NCBI RefSeq assembly: GCF_014055025.1
Contig: NZ_CP059571.1
Location: 1,984,001-2,048,000 of the forward strand
Direction of reading: 5' to 3'
Length of the DNA: 64,000 nt
Origin: Neisseria bacilliformis
Lineage (GTDB): Bacteria > Pseudomonadota > Gammaproteobacteria > Burkholderiales > Neisseriaceae
Below the pieces are notes generated by a model. The model was not told the origin of the DNA. It ran no database searches and saw only the letters and a list, made by a program, of their open reading frames with translations. Below, piece after piece: positions 2,377 to 24,077 of this stretch (its first letter is position 1; each line of letters opens with the position of its first letter). Both the position numbers and the translations under genes were made by a program.

Positions 2377-4281
2377 ATGCCCCGCATCGCCGCCCTGCCC
2401 GACCACCTTGTCAACCAAATCGCCGCCGGCGAAGTGGTCGAACGCCCCGCCAACGCCCTCAAAGAAATCGTCGAGAACAGCATAGACGCCGGCGCAACCG
2501 CCATCTCCGTCGAAATCGAAGGCGGCGGCGTGAAACTGCTGCGCGTTACCGACAACGGCGCGGGCATCCACCCCGACGACCTCGCCCTCGCCCTCTCGCG
2601 CCACGCCACCAGCAAAATCAGCGGTTTGCGCGATTTGGAACGCGTCGCCAGCATGGGTTTTCGCGGCGAAGGGCTGGCCAGCATCGCCTCCGTCAGCCGC
2701 CTCACCCTCACCAGCCGCCAAAGCGGCGAGGGCCACGCCCGCACCATCCGCGCCGAAGACGGCAGCCTCTCCCCCGTATCCGCCGCCGCCGCGCCCGAAG
2801 GCACCACCGTCGAAGTGGCCGACCTCTTCTTCAACACCCCCGCCCGCCGCAAATTCCTCAAATCCGACAACACCGAAGCCGCCCACTGCGCCGCCATGCT
2901 CGAACGCCTCGCGCTCGCCTTCCCCGCCACCGCCTTCTCTCTCACCCGCGAGGGCAAACCCGTTTTCAAACTCCCCCCGCAAACGCTGGAAGCGCGCGCC
3001 GCCGCCATCGTCGGACACGATTTTCAGACGGCCTCCCTGCCCGTTTCCGCCCAAGCCGGCGGCATGACGCTTTACGGCCTCATTGCCAAACCCACCTTCG
3101 CCAAAGGCAAAAGCACGCAGCAATACTGCTTCGTCAACCGACGCTGCGTGCGCGACAAAGTCATCCTCCACGCCGTCAAACAAGCCTACCGCGACGTCCT
3201 CCACCACGCCCTCGTCCCCGCCTTCGTCCTCTTCCTCGATCTCCCCCCCGAAGCCGTCGATGCCAACGTCCACCCCGCCAAAACCGAAATCCGCTTCCGC
3301 GACAGCAGCGCGGTGCACCAGTTTGTCTTCCACACCCTCGACAAAGCCCTCGCCGACACCCGCGCCGACCGCACCGAAAGCATCGGCAACGCCGGCGCGC
3401 TGCTGCACCAAATCGCCGGCATCCCCGACGCAGACAGGCCGTCTGAAAACCCGCAAAACCCGTTTTCAGACGCCCCAAACGCCCCAACCGGCGGCGGCAA
3501 AACCGCCCCCGCCCCCTACGCCCGCGCCCCGCAGCAGCGCAGCCTCGGCCTCAACGAAAGCCGCCGCGCCCTCGACACCTACGCCGAACTCTACCGCCGC
3601 AGCCCGCAGGAAGACCACGAACTCGCCGCCCTCGAACACAGCCGCCGCCTCCCGCCTGAGCGGCCGTCTGAAAACCCGTCCGACAACCCGCCCGAACACC
3701 CCCTCGGCTACGCCATCGCCCAACTTTTGGGCATCTACATCCTCGCCCAGGCCGAAGACAGCCTGCTGCTCATCGACATGCACGCCGCCGCCGAACGCGT
3801 CAACTATGAAAAAATGAAACGCCAGCGCGACACCCAAGGCCGCCTCAACAGCCAAAGCCTGCTCATCCCCGTTACCTTCGCCGCCAGCCGAGAAGAAACC
3901 GCCGCCCTCGCCGAACACGCCGACAGCCTGCGCGCCTACGGCCTCGACCTCTCCGCCGTCGGCGAAAACCGCATCGCCGTGCGCGCCGTGCCGCAAATGC
4001 TCGGCACGTCCGACATCGAAAGCCTCGCCCGCGACATGCTGCGCGACTTCGCCGAACACGGCGCGTCGCAGCAAATCGAAGCGCGCGAAAACCGCCTCCT
4101 CGCTACCATGTCCTGCCACGGCTCGGTGCGCGCCGGCCGCCGCCTCACCCTGCCCGAAATGAACGCCCTGCTGCGCGACATGGAACACACCCCCCGCAGC
4201 AACCAATGCAACCACGGCCGCCCCACCTGGGTGAAACTCACCCTCAAAGAACTCGACGCCCTCTTCCTGCGCGGCCAGTAA
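2377..4281 (+). CDS. mutL: DNA mismatch repair protein MutL
   Basis: MutL couples mismatch recognition by MutS to strand incision. The 634-residue product has the N-terminal GHKL ATPase (E30-N34-D37 in the EIVENSIDAGA motif, DNGAGI near 59, GFRGEGLASI). A disordered linker follows, then a C-terminal dimerisation/endonuclease domain. The endonuclease metal motif is present as DMHAAAERVNYE from residue 467 (family consensus DQHA-x2-E-x4-E, with Met for Gln), with SCHGS and CNHGRP further on. Neisseria lacks MutH, so a nicking MutL is expected. The start at 2377 (MPRIAALPDHL) matches the family; the open frame upstream is DUS-rich and not coding. At least three in-frame DUS sit in or near the linker (DFQTAS, DRPSENP, ERPSENP). 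Confidence 0.96.
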   Translation: MPRIAALPDHLVNQIAAGEVVERPANALKEIVENSIDAGATAISVEIEGGGVKLLRVTDNGAGIHPDDLALALSRHATSKISGLRDLERVASMGFRGEGLASIASVSRLTLTSRQSGEGHARTIRAEDGSLSPVSAAAAPEGTTVEVADLFFNTPARRKFLKSDNTEAAHCAAMLERLALAFPATAFSLTREGKPVFKLPPQTLEARAAAIVGHDFQTASLPVSAQAGGMTLYGLIAKPTFAKGKSTQQYCFVNRRCVRDKVILHAVKQAYRDVLHHALVPAFVLFLDLPPEAVDANVHPAKTEIRFRDSSAVHQFVFHTLDKALADTRADRTESIGNAGALLHQIAGIPDADRPSENPQNPFSDAPNAPTGGGKTAPAPYARAPQQRSLGLNESRRALDTYAELYRRSPQEDHELAALEHSRRLPPERPSENPSDNPPEHPLGYAIAQLLGIYILAQAEDSLLLIDMHAAAERVNYEKMKRQRDTQGRLNSQSLLIPVTFAASREETAALAEHADSLRAYGLDLSAVGENRIAVRAVPQMLGTSDIESLARDMLRDFAEHGASQQIEARENRLLATMSCHGSVRAGRRLTLPEMNALLRDMEHTPRSNQCNHGRPTWVKLTLKELDALFLRGQ

Positions 4282-5650: not shown

Positions 5651-5809
5651 GGGTCTGTTGACATTCAACTTTTGCAGCGGATTTTGCGTCATAAAACGGC
5701 AGATGCAAGGCGAAAACATGAGCCAATGCCATCCATTGGCGAATGTTTTTAACGCGGCAGATGCCGGTTTAGGGCGAAAAAGCCACTGCAAAAGTTGAAT
5801 GTCAACATA
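5651..5809. mobile_element. MITE-like 162-bp family, copy M1
   Basis: Starts GGGTCTGTTGACATTCAACT and ends in AGTTGAATGTCAAC with a few more bases: about 20-bp terminal inverted repeats. The interior contains AACGCGGCAGATGCCGG, related to the CCGCGTCAAAA core of other copies. No protein is encoded. Confidence 0.75.
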
Positions 5810-5875
5810 GCACAAGCCACGCACGCGGTTGGGGCTGTTGGGGCTGGCGGAAAATGTTGAGGCCGTCTGAACCTT

Positions 5876-5958
5876 GTAGGGTGGGTCTCGACCCACCGTT
5901 TGCAAACTTCCCTGTAAATGCCGCCGTGTATGCAACGGTGGGTCAAGAACCACCCTAC
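5876..5958. repeat. GTAG palindrome pair, family A (copy A2)
   Basis: 83 bp, from GTAGGGTGGGTC to CCACCCTAC, directly after a DUS (GGCCGTCTGAAC). Confidence 0.8.
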
Positions 5959-5999
5959 GCAAGCTGCGTTTTTTGGAAAACGCTTTGCCGATAAGGTTT

Positions 6000-6034
6000 G
6001 AGGCCGTCTGAAAACCGATTTTTCAGACGGCCTC
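6000..6034. terminator. Inverted DUS hairpin
   Basis: GAGGCCGTCTGAAAACCG followed by TTTTTCAGACGGCCTC; compact hairpin with T run. Confidence 0.6.
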
Positions 6035-6119
6035 TGCCGCTTGGTAGGGTGTGGCGCAAGCCACGCACGTGGTTGGAGCGGTTGGGACTGGCGGAAAATG
6101 TTGAGGCCGTCTGAACCTT

Positions 6120-6202
6120 GTAGGGTGGGTCTTGACCCACCGTTTGCAAACTTCCCTGCAAATGCCGCCGTGTATGCAACGGTGGGTCAAAACCCACCCT
6201 AC
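6120..6202. repeat. GTAG palindrome pair, family A (copy A3)
   Basis: 83 bp, from GTAGGGTGGGTC to CCACCCTAC; the copy of A2 in the second unit of the tandem repeat. Confidence 0.8.
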
Positions 6203-6239
6203 GCAAGCTGCGTTTTTGAAAACGCTTTGCCGATAAGGT

Positions 6240-6284
6240 TTGAGGCTGTCTGAAAACCGGATTTTCGGTTTTCAGACGGCCTCT
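6240..6284. terminator. Inverted DUS hairpin, downstream of the minus-strand DUF2322/upp genes
   Basis: AGGCTGTCTGAAAACCGG pairs with CCGGTTTTCAGAC-type sequence; one arm carries a G-to-A class mismatch in the DUS. It ends 20 bases beyond the stop codon at 6305. Confidence 0.6.
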
Positions 6285-6304
6285 CTGTTTTCGCGCCGTT
6301 CTGT

Positions 6305-6622
6305 TCAGGCTTCGATCGGTTCGAGTGTCAGGTTCAGTTTTTTCGCTTTCACTTCAAACAGCAGGTCGATGTTGGGGTGTTTGCCTGGGTTGGCCGCCGC
6401 GTCGGTGGTGTGTTCGGCGAAGAGGGTGAGGCCGCGTTCGGCGGATTCGGCATTCAGGCGGCCGGAGTATTCTTGGGCGAGGGCGTTGTAGAGTTTGAGC
6501 GAGCCGAGTTTGCCGGGGGCGGCGGGGATGGTGCGGACGATGTTGCCCGCCGCGTCGCGCACGTTGAGGCCGGACAGGTGGGCGATGTCGCTCATGGTTG
6601 CGAGGCTGTCTTGAAAGCTCAT
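6305..6622 (-). CDS. Small conserved protein, probably DUF2322 family
   Basis: 105 residues from the ATG at 6622, preceded by the ribosome-binding sequence AAAGGAAACC. It opens MSFQDSLATMSDIAHLSGL and contains the conserved-looking run APGKLGSLKLYNALA and NPGKHPNIDLL. No signal peptide or membrane segment, so cytoplasmic. I match it from memory to DUF2322, a family without known function. It lies just downstream of upp on the same strand, separated by a DUS and a CG-rich palindrome. Confidence 0.6.
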   Translation of the reverse strand: MSFQDSLATMSDIAHLSGLNVRDAAGNIVRTIPAAPGKLGSLKLYNALAQEYSGRLNAESAERGLTLFAEHTTDAAANPGKHPNIDLLFEVKAKKLNLTLEPIEA

Positions 6623-6727
6623 GGGGTTTCCTTTGGAGGCGGTTGGGAAGACGGGAGGCCGTCCCCGTCTGCACGGGGATGACGTTTCTGAAAATGCGGT
6701 TTGCGCTTTTTCAGACGGCCTCAAATG

Positions 6728-7354
6728 CTATTTGGTGCCAAATATTTTGTCGCCCGCGTCGCCCAGGCCGGGGATGATGTAGCCGTTTTCGTTGAGGTGG
6801 CTGTCGAGGGCGGCAGCGTATATGGTTACGTCGGGATGGGCTTCGTTCACCAGTTTCACGCCTTCGGGGGCGGCGACGAGGACGAGGGCTTTGATGTTGG
6901 GGCAGCCTTTCTTTTTTAAGAGGTCGATGGTGGCCACCATCGAGCCTCCGGTGGCGAGCATGGGGTCGATGATCAGGGCGGGACGCTGGTCCATTTTGCT
7001 GACGAGTTTTTCAAAATAGGACACGGGTTTGAGGGTTTCTTCGTCGCGTTGCAGGCCGACGACGCTGATTTTGGCGGTGGGGATGAGGTCGAGCACGCCG
7101 TCGAGCATGCCCAGGCCGGCGCGCAGGATGGGGACGACGGTGAGGGTTTTGCCTTTGATGCGCTCGCCTTGTATGGGGCCGCACCAGCCTTGCAGGGTGT
7201 AGGTTTCGGTTTCGATGTCGCGGCTGGCTTCGTAGGCCAGCAGCCGCGCCAGCTCGCCGGTGAGGGTGCGGAATTTGTAGGTGCTACAATCGGCTTCGCG
7301 CATCAGGGCGAGTTTGTGGCGGACAAGGGGGTGGTCGATGATACGGATGTTCAT
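6728..7354 (-). CDS. upp: Uracil phosphoribosyltransferase
   Basis: Salvages uracil to UMP using PRPP in the cytoplasm. The 208-residue product has the family length and motifs: [15 protein letters not shown] at the start, [10 protein letters not shown], the PRPP-binding loop [10 protein letters not shown], and the C-terminal uracil site [12 protein letters not shown] ending FGTK. The start at 7354 is chosen by homology. A TATAAT box lies 33 bases upstream. It is transcribed divergently from the GbsR/MarR-type regulator at 7442. Confidence 0.96.
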
Positions 7355-7387
7355 GGCGGATTGGTTTGAGGGTGGAAAACGGCGCGG

Positions 7388-7393
7388 ATTATA
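7388..7393 (-). promoter_or_regulatory. -10 box of upp
   Basis: On the minus strand this reads TATAAT, with a weak -35 (AAGACA) 17 bases upstream. It lies in the divergent upp/regulator gap. Confidence 0.5.
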
Positions 7394-7414
7394 GCGGCGC
7401 GGCGGATTTCTGTC

Positions 7415-7443
7415 TTGACGGAAATTGGGGAAAACCGAATAAT
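7415..7443 (+). promoter_or_regulatory. Possible promoter of the GbsR/MarR gene
   Basis: TTGACG, 17-base spacer, AATAAT. The -10 overlaps the ATG at 7442; if real, translation would start at the ATG at 7451 on a nearly leaderless message. Confidence 0.35.
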
Positions 7444-7984
7444 GCGCGCCATGAAACTGAACCCGACCACGCAAAAATTCGTGCTCCACTGGGGCGAGAT
7501 GGGCTCCAAATGGGGCGTAAACCGCACGGTGGCGCAAATCCACGCGCTGCTCTACATCATCGGCCGACCGATGAACGCGGAGGAAATCAGCGAAACGCTC
7601 ACCGTCGCGCGCTCGAATGTGAGCAATAGCATCAGGGAGCTGCAAAGCCTGAAACTGGTGCAGACGGTGCACCAGCTGGGCGACCGGCGCGATTATTTCA
7701 CCACGTCCGACGATGTGTGGGTGCTGGTGAAAACGATTGTGGAGCAACGCCAGCAGCGGGAAATCGAGCCGACGCTGCATTTTCTCAACGAGCTGATCGC
7801 CACGCCGGAATTCGCGCAGGAAAACGAGCAGGTGCAAAAACGCATCCGCGACACGCGCGAGTTTATGGACATTGCCACGGGCTGGACGCGCGAGATGATC
7901 CGGCTGCCCGCAGGCACGCTGGCGCAGGTGCTGAAACTGGGGGCGAAGGTGCAGCGGTTTTTAAGCGGGGGGCGCAAGGAGTAG
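7442..7984 (+). CDS. GbsR/MarR family transcriptional regulator
   Basis: About 180 residues. The N-terminal half is a winged helix: [35 protein letters not shown] as recognition helix, then a wing GDRRDYFTT. The C-terminal half is helical ([20 protein letters not shown]) and probably mediates dimerisation. GbsR-like regulators in other bacteria control osmolyte or efflux genes; no target is evident here. The start is uncertain: ATG at 7442 has a GGGGA upstream, ATG at 7451 is equally plausible. Convergent with the patatin gene across an inverted DUS. Confidence 0.8.
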
Positions 7985-7999
7985 GCTTGCACGGTATGA

Positions 8000-8048
8000 A
8001 AAAGGCCGTCTGAAAAACCAATAGAACGGGTTTTCAGACGGCCTCTTT
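8000..8048. terminator. Bidirectional inverted DUS terminator
   Basis: AAAGGCCGTCTGAAAA and its complement flank a 16-base loop between two convergent genes (regulator and patatin). Confidence 0.7.
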
Positions 8049-8075
8049 GCCGCAGACAAATGCGGTATTGCGCAT

Positions 8076-9573
8076 TCACATCGCCGCCGAAGCGGCCTGT
8101 TCGGGCGGCGTTTCTTTGCTTTTGCCCGCGTCTTTGCCGCCTGCGGTTTCCGGCTCGGGGATGGGGGCGGTGGCGGGTTCGGGCAGGGCGAGGTCTTTGG
8201 TGAGACGGCGGTATTCGTCGGAGCGCGAGAGCAGGACGCGGCCGGCTTCTTTGAGGTTGTTCACGTCGTGGGCGGGCAGGTAGAAGCTGGTGGGGATGTT
8301 GAGCACGCGCTCGCGCAGGCCCGATTGCGGCAGGTCGCGCAGGTTGAGGCTGACGAAATACATGTCCACCGGTTTGCTGCTGTTTTTGCCGTTTTTCACG
8401 TCGGTGTTCCATTGGTCGACGAAGGCGCGGAAGCGGCGCAGGGTTTCCTGCGAGTATTTGTCGATGGGGATGTCGATGATGGCGTTGGTTACGGCGCGCA
8501 GGCCGGGCACGGCGGCAGTTTTGTCGATGCCGTTGGCGGGATCGTTTTGCGCGTTGACGTTGATGATGACTATTTTGCGCACGCTGGTTGTTGCGCACGC
8601 GCGAGTAGAGCGACGCGCCGTAGAGGTCGCTCATGTCCAAAAGGCTGCGCAGGCCGAGGTTGTCGGTGAGGCCGCCGTCGAGCAGGTGGATGTAGGGGCG
8701 GTTTTTGCCGTCCTGGTAGTTCATGATGTTCTGCATCACCATTTCGAGGCGGGTCTGCTGTTGCAGTTTGTCGCCGCCGTTGTCGTCGGTTACGGCGTCA
8801 ACCACTTGTTCGGGCAGGCGGTAGCCGCAGTTGCCGCCGTTGTTGTTGATGGTGAGCGGGGCGAACACCAGCGGCACCGCGCTGGATGCGGCCACGGCGC
8901 GGGCGATGGGCAGGTCGGAGAGGTTCAGGCACAGGGCGTCGAAATATTCCTGGGTGAATTCGAAGCGGTTGCCGGCGGACATGTCGGTGGCGGTGATGAC
9001 GGCGAAGGGGCCTTTGCCGTGGCGGTGGAGGTCGCCGAAGGTGGCGTTTTTAAACAGGGTGGTTTCAAACTGTTCCTGCAACAAATCGCCGCGCCCGAAC
9101 TCGGGCGAGGTGAGGCGCGGCAGGTTGGCGAAGGAGAAAATCTGTTTGGAAACCTGGCGTTGGAAGTTCTGTTTTAAAAACCGCCGCTCGAAGGCGGGGA
9201 TGGTGTCTCGGCCGTGCAATGAGAAGTAGGCCGCCAGCACCGAGCCGCCCGACACGCCGTACACCAAGTCCACTGCATCAAGCATGGTCTGCTGCCGGCC
9301 GCCTTTGTAAAGCGGCTGTTTGTCCAATTCTTCCAGCACGCCGTAGCCCAAGGCGGCCGCCCGCGTGCCGCCGCCGGAAAACATCAGCACCACCAGCATG
9401 TCGTCTTCGGCGGGCTTTTTGCGGTAGGCCGTGTCCAGGCGGTAGCCCTCCGCACGGTCAACCTTGGCGATGGTGGCGACGGGCTGGTATTGGAATTTGG
9501 CGCAGGCCGACAGGGCAAGCAGCAGGGCGGGCAGCAGCAGGGCTTTGAGGCCGTCTGAAAAACGTTTGTTCAT
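8076..9573 (-). pseudogene. Patatin-like phospholipase lipoprotein, frameshifted
   Basis: The first frame from 9573 encodes a signal peptide with lipobox (LLLALSAC). A patatin domain follows, with the oxyanion loop GGGTR, nucleophile motif GVSGGS and the DGG of the catalytic dyad (LLDGGLTDNLG). Around 8580-8600 the frame breaks. The rest of the protein (RKIVIINVNAQNDP to PEQAASAAM, stop at 8076) continues in another frame. The break lies at two 8-base direct repeats (TTGCGCAC at 8575 and 8591). Removing one repeat plus the spacer (16 bp) restores a single frame, SRVRKIVIINVNAQ. The catalytic residues are upstream of the break. It may be a true lesion, a slippage variant or an assembly error. 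Confidence 0.8.
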
Positions 9574-17828: not shown

Positions 17829-17864
17829 AACCCGTCCGGCCAACGACACGGCGGCGTTCCCACT

Positions 17865-18026
17865 GGGGCTGTTGACATTCAGCTTGCGAGCGGCTTTTTG
17901 AGTAAAAAATACCCGAATGCAAGGAAAAAAGCGCAGCAAGGTTGGACACCTTGCGAGCATTTTGACGCGGCAGGCGGGTGTTTTTTGCCAAAAACACTGC
18001 CGCAAGGCTGATTGTCAACACACCCT
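17865..18026. mobile_element. MITE-like 162-bp family, copy M2
   Basis: Begins GGGGCTGTTGACATTCAGCT and ends in GATTGTCAACACACCCT; exactly 162 bp. Interior core: CAAGGTTGGACACCTTGCG palindrome and TTTTGACGCGGCAGGCGGG. It lies between the two PPIase genes. Confidence 0.8.
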
Positions 18027-18061
18027 AAGGCACGCCGCCGCAAACACAAACAGGAAAAACC

Positions 18062-19197: not shown

Positions 19198-19236
19198 GCT
19201 GCTGCCCGAAATGCAAAAGGCCGTCTGAAACCTTTT

Positions 19237-19949
19237 GGGGCTGTACTAGATAAGCAGTCATGTTAGACTGTAAAAATGAAGATAACCCGTTGTAAACTAA
19301 AAAAGAGTATTCAAAAGAAACTGCTCCAATTTTTTGTACTCGAAGTTACCGCCCGTTCAGCTGCCGATTTATTGGGCATCCACCCCAATTCGGCAGTGCT
19401 GTTTTACCGCAAGGTTCGCGTAGTCATCAGCCATCATCTCTCGTTGGAAGCCGATATGGTTTTTAACGGCTCGGTCGAGTTGGACGAGAGTTATTTCGGC
19501 GGACACCGCAAAGGCAAACGCGGGCGCGGTGCGGCAGGCAAGGCGGCGGTTTTCGGTATTCTCAAACGCGGCGGCAAGGTCTATACCGTAGTGGTTGAAA
19601 ACGCCAAAAGAGAAACCTTACTGACTGTTATCACAAAGAAAATCATGCCGGACAGCATTGTCTATACGGATTGCCTGGGCAGCTATGACGTATTGGATGT
19701 GAGTGGCTTTACCCACCAACGCATCAACCACAGCAAGCTGTTTGCCGACAGGCAGAACCACATCAACGGCATTGAAAATTTCTGGAATCAGGCAAAGCGC
19801 GTACTGCGCAAATACAACGGAATCGACCGAAAATCTTTCCCGCTGTTCTTGAAAGAATGCGAGTTCCGTTTTAACTTTGGCACACCTTCCGAGCAGCTCA
19901 AAGTGCTGCGTCGGTGGTGTGGAATTTAGGGCTTATCTAGTACAGCCCC
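19237..19949 (+). mobile_element. IS1595-family insertion sequence (IS1016-like), complete
   Basis: 713 bp bounded by perfect 19-bp inverted repeats GGGGCTGTACTAGATAAGC (19237-19255 and 19931-19949), with one intact transposase. The 8 bases on either side (AACCTTTT left, TTATTAAA right) do not match, so no target duplication is seen. The left flank carries AG-DUS; the right flank begins with an Eikenella-type DUS. Confidence 0.9.
19276..19929 (+). CDS. IS1595 family (IS1016-type) transposase
   Basis: 217 residues, full length. Short helix-turn-helix N-terminus (SAADLLGIHPNSAVLFYRK) and an ISXO2-like DDE domain: Asp in VELDESYFGGHRKGKRGRG, Asp in SIVYTDCLGSYDVL, and N/E region GIENFWNQAKRVLRKYNGI. 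The GGHRKGKRGRG pattern is typical of the IS1016 group found in Neisseria and Haemophilus. No internal stop, so probably active. The stop codon lies immediately before the right inverted repeat. Confidence 0.93.
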   Translation: MKITRCKLKKSIQKKLLQFFVLEVTARSAADLLGIHPNSAVLFYRKVRVVISHHLSLEADMVFNGSVELDESYFGGHRKGKRGRGAAGKAAVFGILKRGGKVYTVVVENAKRETLLTVITKKIMPDSIVYTDCLGSYDVLDVSGFTHQRINHSKLFADRQNHINGIENFWNQAKRVLRKYNGIDRKSFPLFLKECEFRFNFGTPSEQLKVLRRWCGI

Positions 19950-20184
19950 TTATTAAAAGGCTACCTGAAAACATAATCGGCAAACAAAAGGCAGCCTGAA
20001 AACCGCCAGCCGCGTGCGTGGCAAAGCCCACCCTACTCATGGGCATGGAAACCTGTTTTTCAGGCTGTCGCAAAGGTCGTCTGAAAACCCAACCCCAAAA
20101 ACCCGCAAGAATCGGGTCGTTCACCTTCGGTCTTTTCCTTAAAATTCCCTCTGTTACCAACTTACTGACAAAACAGGAAAAACC

Positions 20185-20946
20185 ATGCAAAACGATTTTT
20201 TGAATCTGAACAACAAGGTCGCCGCTGTTATCGGCGCGTCGTCGGGTATCGGCAGGGCGACGGCGTTGCTGTTGGCAAAACAGGGCGCGGCGGTGGTGTT
20301 GTGTGCGCTGCGGGCGGACGAACTGGCGCAGACGGCGGCGTTGGTACGCGAAGCGGGTGGCAGGGCGGAAACGGTGGCGGGCGACGCGCGGCAGCCTGAA
20401 ACCCATGCGGCGGTGGTGCGCACGGCGGAACAGGTTTTCGGCGGGCTGGATATTGCCGTCAACAATGTCGGTGCGTTGGGTGCGTACAAGCCGCTTGCCG
20501 AGTTGTCGCCCGATGAATGGCGCGACACGCTGGATAGCAATCTCACCACCGCCTTTTTGGGTGCACGCAGCCAGATTCCCGCCATGCTGCGGCGCGGCGG
20601 CGGTGCGCTGGTATTTACGTCCAGCTTTGTCGGCAACAGCGTCGCCCTGCCGAACCTGTCGGCTTACGGCACGGCAAAAGCGGCGTTGTGCGCGTTGGTG
20701 AAGGGCATTACCGCCGATTATGCGGCGCAGGGCATCCGTGCCAATGCGGTGCTTGCGGGCGGCGCGGACACGGATATGGCGGGCAACGCGGAGCAGAAGG
20801 CATGGGCGGCGGGCTTGCACGCGGTCAAACGCATCGCGCAGCCTGAGGAGATTGCCTCGGTGATCGCTTTTCTTGCCGGCCCGGCGGCGAGTTTTGTAAC
20901 GGGCGCATCGCTGTTTGCCGACGGCGGCAATTCGTCGGTGAAGTAG
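20185..20946 (+). CDS. Short-chain dehydrogenase/reductase (SDR)
   Basis: 253 residues, classical SDR length. Rossmann motif GASSGIGRATALLLA near residue 12, NNVGALG, catalytic Ser in TSSFVGNS and YGTAKAAL as the Tyr-x-x-x-Lys pair, then the C-terminal GASLFADGGNSSVK that resembles FabG-like reductases. Cofactor specificity and substrate are unknown. ACAGGAAAAACC precedes the ATG. It sits within the imported block; a near-Kingella DUS (CGGCAGCCTGAA) lies inside the coding sequence at 20389. Confidence 0.88.
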   Translation: MQNDFLNLNNKVAAVIGASSGIGRATALLLAKQGAAVVLCALRADELAQTAALVREAGGRAETVAGDARQPETHAAVVRTAEQVFGGLDIAVNNVGALGAYKPLAELSPDEWRDTLDSNLTTAFLGARSQIPAMLRRGGGALVFTSSFVGNSVALPNLSAYGTAKAALCALVKGITADYAAQGIRANAVLAGGADTDMAGNAEQKAWAAGLHAVKRIAQPEEIASVIAFLAGPAASFVTGASLFADGGNSSVK

Positions 20947-21257
20947 CGGGTTTCGTCTTTGCCCGACGGCGTTTCAGGCTGCCTGAAAGAGTGGCGTAGC
21001 TCGGGCATTTATGCCCGACCTGCAAACTGCGCGGGAATGACGGCGTGTTTTGCGGTTCCGGGTTTTGCAAAGGTTTCGGCCTTTCTGCATTTTCAGGTAG
21101 CCTGAACGCACCCAAAGGCCGCTTCGTTTCTTTTTTGAGGACAGTCCGAGATTGCGCTGTCATTACCCCGTCCTTACAATCGCATCCGGCCGAGCCGTTT
21201 CAGGCAGCCTGAAACAGCTCTTTTCCAGACCAACCCCCTTTCCAAAAGGAAATCCCC
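20947..21257. other. Intergenic region with foreign DUS and a family C palindrome
   Basis: Holds a Simonsiella/Kingella-type DUS palindrome (20975-20988), a GTAG family C unit (20996-21023), a dRS3 half-like CGCGGGAATGACG, an Eikenella-type DUS (minus, 21092-21103) and a Kingella-type DUS (21202-21213). No gene. Confidence 0.6.
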
Positions 21258-21785
21258 ATGAAAAAACACATCCTCCTCACCGCCGCCCTTGCCTTAACGG
21301 CCGCCGTCCCCGTCCTGGCCGCCGACAAAGCGTCGCCCATGTTGCCCATTTTGGAACGCTATCACGTGCAAGAAGGCGACGCATGCGGTTTAACCGTTGA
21401 AAAAACCTTCCAATACGGCGGCGCAACCTACGTTCTCTATTCCTCGGCCGGCTATTTCGCCTCCCAGAGCAAGCCCAGCCACGAACACTGCGATGGCGGC
21501 GAGGCGACATTTACCTTCAGGCTGGCCGAAATCCGCAACAAGCGCGTGGTGAACGACGATTTGTTCTCCGGCATCAACATCAACACCCGCTTCCTCGACG
21601 TCAACAGCGTCCGCTTAAACGGCGCAATCCTCACCTTTAAAAACAACGAACTGGGCAAAGACCCCGAAACGGGCGAAGCAGACGACAACCGCTACGCCGC
21701 CGATATCTATCTCAACCAGTTCAATTTGAAAACGCGCCGCGTCATCAAGCACGAATTTATCGGACGCGACAAATCAAACGGTTAA
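21258..21785 (+). CDS. Hypothetical secreted protein
   Basis: 175 residues. Clear signal peptide (LLTAALALTAAVPVLAADKA) and a mature domain of about 150 residues with two Cys (EGDACGL, HEHCDGG), probably a disulfide, and a beta-rich composition (YVLYSSAGYF). Periplasmic or outer-membrane associated. Ribosome-binding sequence AAAGGAAA lies upstream. Family not recognised; located in the imported block between the SDR and ada. Confidence 0.65.
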   Translation: MKKHILLTAALALTAAVPVLAADKASPMLPILERYHVQEGDACGLTVEKTFQYGGATYVLYSSAGYFASQSKPSHEHCDGGEATFTFRLAEIRNKRVVNDDLFSGININTRFLDVNSVRLNGAILTFKNNELGKDPETGEADDNRYAADIYLNQFNLKTRRVIKHEFIGRDKSNG

Positions 21786-21966
21786 GCAGGACAGGTCGGG
21801 CATTCATGCCCGGTTTTTTTAAATCCGCCGGCAAAGGCAGCCTGAAAACCCATCCGCACCCAATCCACAGCAAGCAAGTTTGTTTTAACGTTTCAGGCTA
21901 CCTGAAATACTGTCGGGCAAACTGCAAAAGCGTTTTCCCTTTTATCCAAAACAAACTGAAAATACG

Positions 21967-22143
21967 ATGACCACCGCCCAACAAATCCAATTCGAGCGCA
22001 TCGCCGCCGCGATAGAGTTTCTCTACGACCACCACCGCGAGCAGCCCGACCTGGCCGCCGTTGCCGCACACGTCCACATCAGCCCCCAGCACTTGCAGCG
22101 GCAATTTCAGCAGTGGGCGGGCTTAGGGTGTGTTGGCAATTAA
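21967..22143 (+). pseudogene. ada, N-terminal AraC-type helix-turn-helix fragment
   Basis: 58 codons ending in a TAA inside the MITE-like insertion M3. The peptide IERIAAAIEFLYDHHREQPD-type start followed by LAAVAAHVHISPQHLQRQF and QQWAGL is the first half of the AraC-type DNA-binding domain found in Ada proteins lacking the N-terminal phosphotriester domain. Removing the 162-bp insert joins QQWAGL directly to GPKKMLQHIS in the same frame, so this and the next entry were one gene. Confidence 0.88.
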
Positions 22144-22287
22144 CGTTTTGGCGGCTTTCCCGCCATAAAACGGCATCTGCCGCGTTAAAAATACTCGCCT
22201 ATGGACGGCATAGGCTCGCATTTTTGCCTTGCATCTGCCATTTTCTGACGAAAAATCCGCTTCAAAAGTTAAATGTCAACACACCCC
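22126..22287. mobile_element. MITE-like 162-bp family, copy M3, inserted in ada
   Basis: Begins GGGTGTGTTGGCAATTAACG and ends in AAATGTCAACACACCCC. Exactly 162 bp, a multiple of three, but the first reading through it meets TAA after five codons. Interior has CCGCGTTAAAAATACTCGCC like the other copies. Confidence 0.88.
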
Positions 22288-22956
22288 GGCCCGAAAAAAA
22301 TGCTGCAACACATCAGCATCGAAAACGCCAAGCGCATTCTGCACGCCCAAGGCAGCGTGCAGGATGCCGCGCTGGCAAGCGACCTAAGCGGCACCGGGCG
22401 GCTGCACGACCTCTTTACCACCATAGAAGGCATGACCCCGGGCGAATACAAAAACGGCGGCGCCGGCCTGCAAATAGACTGGCAGCTCGCCGCCAGCCCC
22501 TACGGCAGAGTGTTGGTCGCCAACACCGGCAAAGGCATCTGCTTCCTCAGTTTCGCCGACGACCCCGCCGCCGAACGCGCACGCCTGCAAGCCCTTTTCC
22601 CCAATGCCGAACTGCGCAACGCCGCCAGCCAAATGCAGGCGCAAGCCTTGCATGCGCTACAACAGCCGCCGCAGCAACCGCTCGCCCTGCACATCAAAGG
22701 CACGCCGTTCCAACTCAAAGTCTGGCAGGCCTTGCTCAACATCCCGTGTGGGCAGCTTGCCGACTACGGCACACTCGCCGCGCGCATCGGACATCCCAAA
22801 GCCTGCCGCGCCGTCGGTACCGCAGTCGGCAGCAACCCCGTCGCCGTGCTGATACCCTGCCACCGCGTTATCCGCCAAACCGGCATGGTCGGCGGCTACC
22901 GCTGGCATCGCGGGCGGAAAATCGCCCTGTTGGGCAAAGAATTGGAATCAGCATGA
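22273..22956 (+). CDS. Methylated-DNA--protein-cysteine methyltransferase, remainder of interrupted ada
   Basis: 227 residues starting at an ATG inside the right end of the MITE-like element. Residues 1-60 are the second half of the AraC-type domain (LQHISIENAKRILHAQGSVQ, GMTPGEYK). The rest is a complete O6-alkylguanine transferase domain: FQLKVWQALLNIPCGQLADY, the helix RAVGTAVGSNP, and the methyl-acceptor site IPCHRVI with Cys196, then GGYRWHRGRKIALL. The repair activity could survive while the regulatory half cannot bind DNA normally. No good ribosome-binding site is seen before the new ATG. ATGA overlap with alkB. Confidence 0.85.
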   Translation: MSTHPGPKKMLQHISIENAKRILHAQGSVQDAALASDLSGTGRLHDLFTTIEGMTPGEYKNGGAGLQIDWQLAASPYGRVLVANTGKGICFLSFADDPAAERARLQALFPNAELRNAASQMQAQALHALQQPPQQPLALHIKGTPFQLKVWQALLNIPCGQLADYGTLAARIGHPKACRAVGTAVGSNPVAVLIPCHRVIRQTGMVGGYRWHRGRKIALLGKELESA

Positions 22957-23573
22957 ACTTGTTTGCCACGCACCCCGACGACAACCTGCTGCCCTACGAC
23001 GGCATCATTAACGACTACGGCGTCATCTTCACCCCGCAGCAAGCCGATGATTACCTTGCCTATTTGGAAGAACACATCGCATGGCGGCACGACGAAGCCG
23101 TTATTTACGGCAAACACATCACCACCGCCCGCCAAGTCGCATGGTACGGCGCACAAAATTTCGCCTACACCTATTCGGGCGCGACCCGCATCGCACTACC
23201 GTGGGACAGCGTGTTAGCCAACATCAAACAGCAGGTAGAACAACACATTGCCGCCGTCAGCCCCGTCTGCTTCAACTCCTGCCTGCTCAACCGCTACGCC
23301 GACGGCAGCCAGGGCATGGCGTGGCATAGCGACGACGAAGCCTGCTTGGGCAAAGACACCGTTATCGCATCCGTCAGCTTCGGCGCGACGCGGAAATTCG
23401 CGTTCAAACACAAACAAACGCAGGAAAAACGCGAACTCATGCTGCAACATGGGCAGCTCATCGTCATGCGCGGCAGCACCCAGACCCATTGGCGGCACGC
23501 CATTATGAAAAGCAGCAAAATCCACACTCCGCGTATTAACCTGACCTTTCGCACCATGCTGGCGCAGGGGTAG
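22953..23573 (+). CDS. alkB: AlkB family 2-oxoglutarate/Fe(II)-dependent DNA dealkylase
   Basis: 206 residues. Oxidatively removes methyl groups from N1-methyladenine and N3-methylcytosine. Visible features: nucleotide-recognition region RQVAWYGAQNFAYTYSG, NSCLLNRYADGSQGMAWHSD with iron ligands H125 and D127, distal His in THWRHAI, and 2-oxoglutarate-binding R-x-N-x-T-x-R (PRINLTFR). The start codon overlaps the ada stop (ATGA), so ada-alkB formed an alkylation-repair operon. A Kingella-like DUS variant follows the stop. Confidence 0.92.
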   Translation: MNLFATHPDDNLLPYDGIINDYGVIFTPQQADDYLAYLEEHIAWRHDEAVIYGKHITTARQVAWYGAQNFAYTYSGATRIALPWDSVLANIKQQVEQHIAAVSPVCFNSCLLNRYADGSQGMAWHSDDEACLGKDTVIASVSFGATRKFAFKHKQTQEKRELMLQHGQLIVMRGSTQTHWRHAIMKSSKIHTPRINLTFRTMLAQG

Positions 23574-23593
23574 GGCAGCCTGAAAACGGCGTA

Positions 23594-23663
23594 GTAGGTC
23601 GGGCATTGATGCCCGACAAACACCGGAAAATTGAAAAACGTCGGGCATAAATGCCCAACCTGC
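23594..23663. repeat. Family C palindrome pair (copy C4)
   Basis: GTAG plus arms GTCGGGCAT/ATGCCCGAC, a 25-base middle, then the inverted unit ending CTGC. Confidence 0.75.
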
Positions 23664-23682
23664 CCTGCCTCCAAACACCGTC

Positions 23683-23778
23683 GTTCCCGCGCAAACGGGA
23701 ATTTTGTCGGATTCAAGCAACAGTTTGTTTATTCAAAAACAATCGGATGCCAAACAAGATTCCCACCTGCGCGGGAAT
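23683..23778. repeat. dRS3 pair (NIME-like unit)
   Basis: Two copies of the ATTCCC-N8-GGGAAT repeat: 23683-23702 (first base G instead of A) and 23759-23778 (perfect), 96 bp outer to outer. In Neisseria such dRS3 repeats flank intergenic mosaic elements and are targets of filamentous phage integration. Confidence 0.75.
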
Positions 23779-23887
23779 GACGTTTCTGAAAAACGGGTTT
23801 CGTGTCTTTGTGCAGGGTGTACGGCTTGCTGCGCACGCGGTTTGCGGTTTCGGCTACCGTTTGAATATTCCCGCGTGCGCTGCAAAC

Positions 23888-23946
23888 AACAGGCCGTCTG
23901 AAAACGCGGTTTCGGTTTTGCCGGAGCGTTTTCAGACGGCCTGTTG
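23888..23946. repeat. Inverted DUS pair with extended stem
   Basis: CAACAGGCCGTCTGAAAACG pairs with CGTTTTCAGACGGCCTGTTG: 20-bp arms, the first AG-DUS to the right of the imported block. Confidence 0.75.
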
Positions 23947-23968
23947 TGCGGTGGCATATGGTAGTAGA

Positions 23969-24039
23969 GTAGGTCGGGCATTGATGCCCGACAAACGGCA
24001 GCAGATTTGACAAACGTCGGGCATGAATGCCCGACCTAC
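23969..24039. repeat. Family C palindrome pair (copy C5)
   Basis: GTAG head and CTAC tail both intact; arms GTCGGGCAT and ATGCCCGAC in each half. 71 bp. Confidence 0.8.
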
Positions 24040-24077
24040 CGGCTTGACCCGCCGTTCCACCGGTACCGTTATTGATT

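Follow-up and report, generated by a model that had tools for sequence, protein, structure and literature searches.

Has a block of genes in Neisseria bacilliformis been taken up from a bacterium with a different dialect of DNA uptake sequence (DUS)? The block lies at about 19,950–23,590 of a 64,000-nucleotide stretch of contig NZ_CP059571.1 (positions 1,984,001 to 2,048,000; hereafter the window) and encodes an SDR-family oxidoreductase, a secreted-type protein of 175 residues, pieces of ada, and AlkB, next to an insertion sequence (IS) transposase. The initial annotation, made from the sequence alone, had noted that the host's AG-DUS was missing and that Kingella-type (king), Eikenella-type (eik), Simonsiella-type (sim) and mucosa-type (muc) DUS were present instead, and had proposed that the genes came from Kingella- or Eikenella-like donors. 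Such dialects are regarded as a fence against gene exchange. We find that the block behaves as a dialect-marked patch and that a homologous cluster has crossed dialects in relatives (95% identity vs. 72% for controls), which lends import some support, whereas the proposed donors are not supported. On balance, we lean towards import from another Neisseriaceae lineage with king, sim and eik dialects, outside the collections that were searched.

Native and foreign DUS in the block and the genome

The window contains 125 exact matches to AG-DUS, 4 to kingDUS, 3 to eikDUS, 3 to mucDUS, 2 to simDUS and 1 to AT-DUS. The reported lack of AG-DUS across the block was borne out: the AG-free gap runs from 19218 to 23891 (4673 bp), whereas no other in the window exceeds 2448 bp, and all king, eik and sim matches of the window fall inside it, within 19958–21906. 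The sites, all exact, are an eikDUS (AGGCTACCTGAA, 19958–19969, + strand), a kingDUS (AGGCAGCCTGAA, 19989–20000, +), a palindrome (TTCAGGCTGCCTGAA, 20973–20987) read as king on the minus and sim on the plus strand, an eikDUS on the minus strand inside TTCAGGTAGCCTGAA (21092–21106), a second palindrome (TTCAGGCAGCCTGAA, 21199–21213) read as sim on the minus and king on the plus strand, a kingDUS (21835–21846, +), and an eikDUS on the plus strand, starting at 21895, inside TTCAGGCTACCTGAA (21892–21906). In the two palindromes, TTCAGGC(T/A)GCCTGAA, king and sim overlap by 9 bases; because each counts as king on one strand and sim on the other, the number of distinct king/eik/sim places is seven.

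Foreign sites are thus present as first described, but they amount to three eik, four king, two sim and one muc rather than three, three, one and one. The mucDUS (AGGTCGTCTGAA, 20074–20085, +, exact) fails as a foreign marker, because two of the three muc sites in the window (51413 and 61435) are in AG-rich parts. Nor is the whole 3.6 kb marked: the left half is, whereas the ada-alkB half (21907–23590) holds no exact foreign DUS, only a king-like site with one mismatch (GGGCAGCCTGAA, 23573–23584, +), which is the last foreign-like site of the block and the one on which the marking of its right half rests.

The density of these sites was compared with 19 stretches (377 kb) from elsewhere in the genome, which were positioned manually at intervals of about 125 kb so as to avoid most known cluster stretches, with one 4-kb overlap; their foreign-site density (49 in 377 kb) is near that of the genome (361 in 2.49 Mb). 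None of 6172 overlapping 3641-bp windows from this sample held seven or more foreign places, the maximum being five. In the 19 stretches plus the window, 9 of 670 AG-free gaps were at least 4673 bp long, the window's own included, so the gap is an outlier, but not extreme. An island as dense as the block, with seven foreign places and no AG-DUS in 3641 bp, surrounds the core gene mnmG (L080, G000:C1:96001-112000, at 5750–9400), in one of eight stretches chosen for showing site clusters. The block is real and extreme, yet it is not unique in the genome.

The reasoning behind the initial annotation is that of a published method: Hughes-Games et al. 2020 (PMC7371117) recognize horizontally acquired DNA by the absence of the host's main DUS where another dialect, king/sim dyads among it, is in excess. 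In the block, the predominant DUS is missing over an outlier gap and alternative DUS are over-represented, but the sites (4 king, 3 eik, 2 sim) do not approach a single alternative dialect. The larger islands in that paper extend up to 36 kb, are almost exclusively of one dialect, and have conjugation genes and attachment sites, whereas the block is shorter than 5 kb, mixes dialects, carries neither conjugation nor integrase genes, and is bordered by an IS on one side; the paper also mentions small islands whose limits are difficult to set. Finding islands by foreign DUS is already published, and the block would be a further case. Among papers searched by title and abstract, none describes the block, a transfer of SDR-ada-alkB, or a king-rich AG-DUS genome.

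The more interesting question is why this genome has so many king-dialect sites. The host genome (G000; 2,492,712 bases) has 3951 AG-DUS, 272 king sites and 38 eik sites, and sites of the form AGGCWRCCTGAA number 361, with none for the reversed control pattern. In the 45 other searched genomes of the genus, king sites range in number from 2 to 54, with a median of 6. The initial annotation had held that foreign dialects scattered evenly over the genome would refute import; half of this applies, since the sites do occur throughout the genome but are clustered. Among 100 listed forward sites (of 175), 54 of 99 gaps were 4 kb or less, compared to a random mean of 25 and a maximum of 37 in 2000 trials. 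In the 19 stretches, which hold 565 AG-DUS and 49 king/eik/sim matches, AG-free gaps of at least 3 kb contain 23 of the 49 foreign sites vs. 21% of the bases (a share that includes the window's gaps). AG-DUS within 1.5 kb averaged 2.36 around 39 merged foreign places vs. 4.50 at random places, and 0 of 5000 resamplings were as low; one of the 39 places is near a stretch end, so that its neighborhood was cut. Local GC content did not differ between the surroundings of foreign sites and random places (0.593 vs. 0.588).

Some foreign sites are on mobile DNA. One stretch with such sites (L187) has matches to F-type conjugation genes, to the Pfam families TraG_N and TraC_F_IV above their cut-offs and to the TraC, TraW, TraU and TraH models below the NCBIfam cut-offs; another (L182) has matches to phage tail sheath and tape-measure genes. 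Foreign dialect marks mobile DNA, and core genes too. Across the genome, the pattern argues for many kinds of import, or partly for a relic dialect, without deciding between them site by site.

Three observations accompany this survey. In L187 (G000:C1:2300001-2320000), kingDUS are on the F-type conjugation genes and only 6 AG-DUS occur in 20 kb, a likeness to the king/sim-marked islands of PMC7371117. At 3036–7897 of L184 (G000:C1:1925001-1945000), alaS, whose king, sim and eik sites fall in a gap of 6.7 kb without AG-DUS, directly adjoins a GmrSD-type restriction gene of low G+C content at third codon positions (GC3; 0.38), possibly a core-gene replacement hitching with a defense gene. Hybrid hairpins, in which one arm is an AG-DUS and the other a king, eik or sim site, frequently of the form TTCAGACGGCCTCAAAGGC(T/A)(A/G)CCTGAA, number 18 in the host (e.g., G000:C1 919419, 920855, 921679, 1320145 and 1369308) and 8 in the relative G003; as a private feature of the host they were rejected, since one or more were found in 19 of 83 genomes.

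Edges of the block and related clusters in other genomes

The left edge of the block is not 19950, as first described, but an IS1595-family element of 713 bp (19237–19949, +) that separates the last AG-DUS from the first eikDUS. Its terminal inverted repeats begin GGGGCTGTACTAGATAA, and its DDE transposase (19276–19929) matches NF033547 (3.1e-44, 151 bits against a cut-off of 75) and PF12762 (6.3e-31). At least five copies occur elsewhere in the genome at 99% identity, one of them short at one end, in a search that scored six candidates per genome. The window copy shares the transposase family and terminal repeats of IS1595 elements, but it has no target-site duplication in its flanks, unlike a sister copy with a duplication of 8 bp. 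No reciprocal flanks were seen by eye among the copies inspected. A composite transposon was rejected: with one mismatch allowed, the GGGGCTGTACTAGATAA matches in the window are the two ends of a single copy. On the right side, a dispersed repeat of 72 bp (23593–23664) is 86% identical to a copy near 23968–24040.

Two peptidyl-prolyl isomerase genes (PPI1-PPI2) flank the block on the left, and two genes that we take from their Pfam families to be mtgA and aroE flank it on the right. These anchors have the same order and orientation in four relatives (G012, G016, G027 and G047), where GluQRS, transaldolase, KpsF/KdsD, LptA and LptB (named from the G027 proteins) lie between them; in the host, the IS and the block take this place, and none of the five genes has a match in the window. 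G020 and G024 have the two anchors widely separated or on separate contigs, and in G015 the mtgA side alone was found and read. No empty site appeared among the anchor regions inspected. The block fills a variable interval, unlike a simple insertion that leaves the rest of the site as it was. A repeat at 17855–18027, between the two isomerase genes, is 95% identical to sequences at G000:C1:852474 and 586462.

A DNA search covered 83 genomes of the family and scored three candidates per genome, which limits what its absences mean. Matches to ada-alkB at 68–71% were found in at least G019, G020, G014, G034, G026, G031, G003, G036, G054 and G042; in G028 the match was in two pieces (69 and 72%), and alkB alone or in part was matched in others. 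SDR was matched in at least six genomes (G014, G026, G034, G031, G003 and G020).

The clusters of two of these relatives have crossed dialects. G020 is an AG-DUS genome (2809 copies) and G003 an eikDUS genome (2836 copies), the latter apparently Eikenella- or N. shayeganii-like, to judge from the dialects in PMC3630211. Their clusters are 95.0% identical over 3240 columns and 95.4% over 1319 columns, vs. 72.4% over 1460 columns for the control. The ada-alkB part is likewise 94–95% identical in the pairs G020-G014, G020-G026 and G003-G014, with SDR there at 79–81%; the controls gave 72.4% (G020-G014) and 72.6% (G020-G026), and for G003-G014 and G003-G026 no control alignment exceeded 300 bp. 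The cluster spacers in G020 and G003 carry king3DUS (AAGCAGCCTGCA), which by count is native to neither: 15 of 64 genome-wide copies in G020, and 19 of 70 in G003, are within the 20-kb cluster stretch. No king3-rich genome was found among the 83, the maximum being 70; PMC10715097 gives king3DUS as the dialect of K. kingae, K. negevensis and K. denitrificans. On these identities and tags, a related cluster has passed from one dialect group to another, probably by way of a king3 lineage or out of one. The G020-G003 sharing is the firmest support for dialect crossing, but it concerns the relatives and not the window's own copy.

The window cluster has its gene set in common with the SDR-ada-alkB clusters of G020, G003 and G014/G026/G031/G034, and its order and orientation, SDR-x-ada-alkB, with G020 and G003. 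Its proteins, however, are only 58–74% identical to theirs, and the middle gene differs. The relatives' clusters are tagged with king3DUS or mucDUS (the latter in the stretches of G014, G026 and G034) and the window's with king, eik and sim; in G020, ada forms a single frame, but in the window it is split.

Origin of the block

Import of the block is favored because native DUS are absent, foreign DUS are dense, the interval is variable, an IS stands at the change of dialect, and clusters cross dialects in relatives; we consider it somewhat probable. The DNA that starts with the IS at 19237 and extends to roughly 23.6 kb would have arrived from a Neisseriaceae lineage with king, sim and eik dialects, as ordinary foreign DNA, either by rare non-cognate uptake or by carriage on another element. 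According to Frye et al. 2013 (PMC3630211), kingDUS transforms N. meningitidis at about 0.0002 of the AT-DUS frequency and eikDUS not at all, so that cross-dialect transformation is rare in that species, but not nil for kingDUS. On the left, recombination at an IS copy is suggested by an IS at the dialect edge without a duplication; on the right, the 72-bp repeat at 23593 may have served recombination. The block may have persisted through the benefit of a former alkylation-repair pair. Decay is seen in part, a 161-bp repeat having cut ada; this cut would postdate the import.

Several results weigh against import. About half of the sampled foreign sites (26 of 49) are in AG-free gaps shorter than 3 kb; a foreign site alone is therefore no proof of import. 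None of the ten genomes with at least 898 king sites matched SDR, ada or alkB among the three candidates scored for each. Identity to the relatives (eight stretches, where the genes are present) is 70–73% for SDR and 68–72% for ada-alkB, similar to that of the flanking controls between the host and six genomes (70–74%). With distances no different from those of core genes, this measure gives no evidence of import. The window sequence has no supported sister in trees of AlkB (38 rows) or of the C-terminal part of Ada (26 rows). GC3 of the block genes is 0.74–0.76 vs. 0.788 (sd 0.053) for 45 other gene-like reading frames of the window, a crudely filtered set in which some may be antisense. Finally, IS copies here often lack a duplication: only one (1338832, 8 bp) of the five with both ends, the window's included, shows it; by eye, a related element with similar ends at 2319269, unmatched by the copy search, also has one. 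If the import is real, it would have happened long ago, because the composition looks native and the gene distances equal those of core genes.

The Kingella or Eikenella donor first proposed is not supported: besides the lack of a match in king-rich genomes and of a supported sister, the sampled stretches of nine of the ten king-rich genomes have a GC content of 0.40–0.52 vs. 0.58 for the block. Three possible pointers were rejected: base composition as proof of import, since the block genes are within the host range (SDR alone has odd codon usage, at the 4th percentile); the gene trees, in which the window sequence is unplaced; and the 175-residue orphan, whose two distant relatives among the 83 genomes are both from the same genus. 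The AlkB tree comprised 17 named sequences and 20 Neisseriaceae loci and the Ada tree 13 and 12, with 80 named loci available; L019 and L023 failed the length or E-value cut for AlkB. Both trees depart from taxonomy, with G003 and G020 in a clade with G014, G026, G031 and G034 (100/100 in both). Pasteurella testudinis, which both trees join to G042 (98/97 in AlkB, 99/96 in Ada), is also the nearest named sequence to the window AlkB, at 72%.

The strongest competitor holds that the genes are old residents, as long in the lineage as its core genes, and that the king, eik and sim sites survive from an earlier or second dialect, in a stretch not yet rewritten to AG-DUS. Core-like gene distances and host-like composition agree with this, as do the foreign sites in or beside alaS and mnmG, the 18 hybrid hairpins, and the excess of king sites over the rest of the genus. 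However, the sites are clustered and avoid AG-DUS neighborhoods (which slow rewriting could also yield), some are on conjugation and phage genes, and a homologous cluster is seen moving in relatives. We regard a relic dialect as a serious but rather unlikely origin. A related idea, to which we give slightly less credence still, is that this Neisseria is “bilingual”, a lineage that takes in king-dialect DNA with unusual ease, owing to a permissive ComP receptor or to a half-completed dialect switch, with the AG/king hairpins as intermediates. On this view, the block would preserve one stage in the genome's change of uptake language, and the alkylation-repair cluster would be cargo that has crossed between languages more than once. 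The hundreds of foreign sites in this genome, together with a DNA-repair cluster nearly identical between AG-DUS and eikDUS genomes and tagged with a third dialect, reveal at which points the fence is crossed, and how frequently, and offer material for testing how dialects switch.

Less probable again is a mosaic of short transformation tracts, in which SDR, the 175-residue gene and ada-alkB arrived at different times from donors of different dialects. The initial annotation had suggested more than one step from the mixture of dialects, which does not follow: king, sim and eik occur together in single genomes, such as G058 (2191 king and 171 eik) and G054 (217 and 149). Still, no sampled genome has an eik share as high as three in seven places beside king, so that several steps are not refuted. 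The confinement of exact foreign sites to the left half also fits a mosaic, as does the absence of the secreted-type gene from the G020 and G003 clusters, where G020 has an isoprenylcysteine-methyltransferase-like gene instead; the order and orientation shared with these clusters argue against it. Chance mutation of AG-DUS or an assembly error is most improbable: intermediate variants do exist (AGGCTGTCTGAA three times in the window), but nothing positive favors it, king and sim are 2 and eik 3 bases from AG-DUS, the reversed control gave 0 vs. 361 sites, the median is 6 king sites in the rest of the genus, and the genome is a single contig.

Genes of the block and a possible further dialect

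The SDR-family oxidoreductase (20185–20946, +; 253 residues) matches NF005681 (1.3e-92, above the cut-off) and PF13561. The 175-residue protein (21258–21785, +) has no Pfam or NCBIfam match; read by eye, its N-terminus resembles a signal peptide. Its two relatives, in two other genomes of the genus, are 32–39% identical, and an AlphaFold2 model of middling confidence (mean predicted local distance difference test score 72.6) had no match in the PDB at E ≤ 0.001. No integrase, relaxase or type IV secretion genes were found in the block by Pfam and NCBIfam scans; attachment sites were not sought.

As a correction to the initial annotation, ada is interrupted. A dispersed inverted-repeat element of 161 bp (22126–22286, ends GGGTGTGTTGGCAATTAAC and GTTAAATGTCAACACACCC), with many relatives in other stretches of the genome that were read, splits the gene within its AraC-type helix-turn-helix. 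The 5′ piece (21967–22143, +) encodes the first part of this motif and stops inside the element, while the methyltransferase half stays open as a 3′ part of 227 residues (22273–22956, +) with an O6-methylguanine-DNA methyltransferase domain (PF01035, 8.6e-30; TIGR00589 above its cut-off; NF011964, 3e-49, below its cut-off). The methyltransferase and the helix-turn-helix are therefore not in a single frame. The right end of the element supplies an ATG (22273) in frame with the methyltransferase half. AlkB (22953–23573, +; 206 residues) is a 2OG-Fe(II) oxygenase by PF13532 (2.6e-35; 122.9 bits against a cut-off of 31.2) and matches the NCBIfam AlkB equivalogs only below their cut-offs.

In another genome of the collection, G060, AGTCTGCCGGAA occurs 16 times in 17.3 kb (L228 and L229), partly as inverted pairs like DUS hairpins (L228 3533/3559, 5855/5881 and 7082/7098). 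It departs from simDUS by two changes and does not preserve the CTG core, which PMC3630211 gives as common to all dialects. It is absent from the 8 kb of G062 that were read, and literature matches to GTCTGCCGGAA are unrelated, judging by their titles. The shifted 12-mer AAGTCTGCCGGA occurs 404 times in G060 and 546 times in G062, and AGTCTGCCGGAA is possibly an undescribed DUS dialect.

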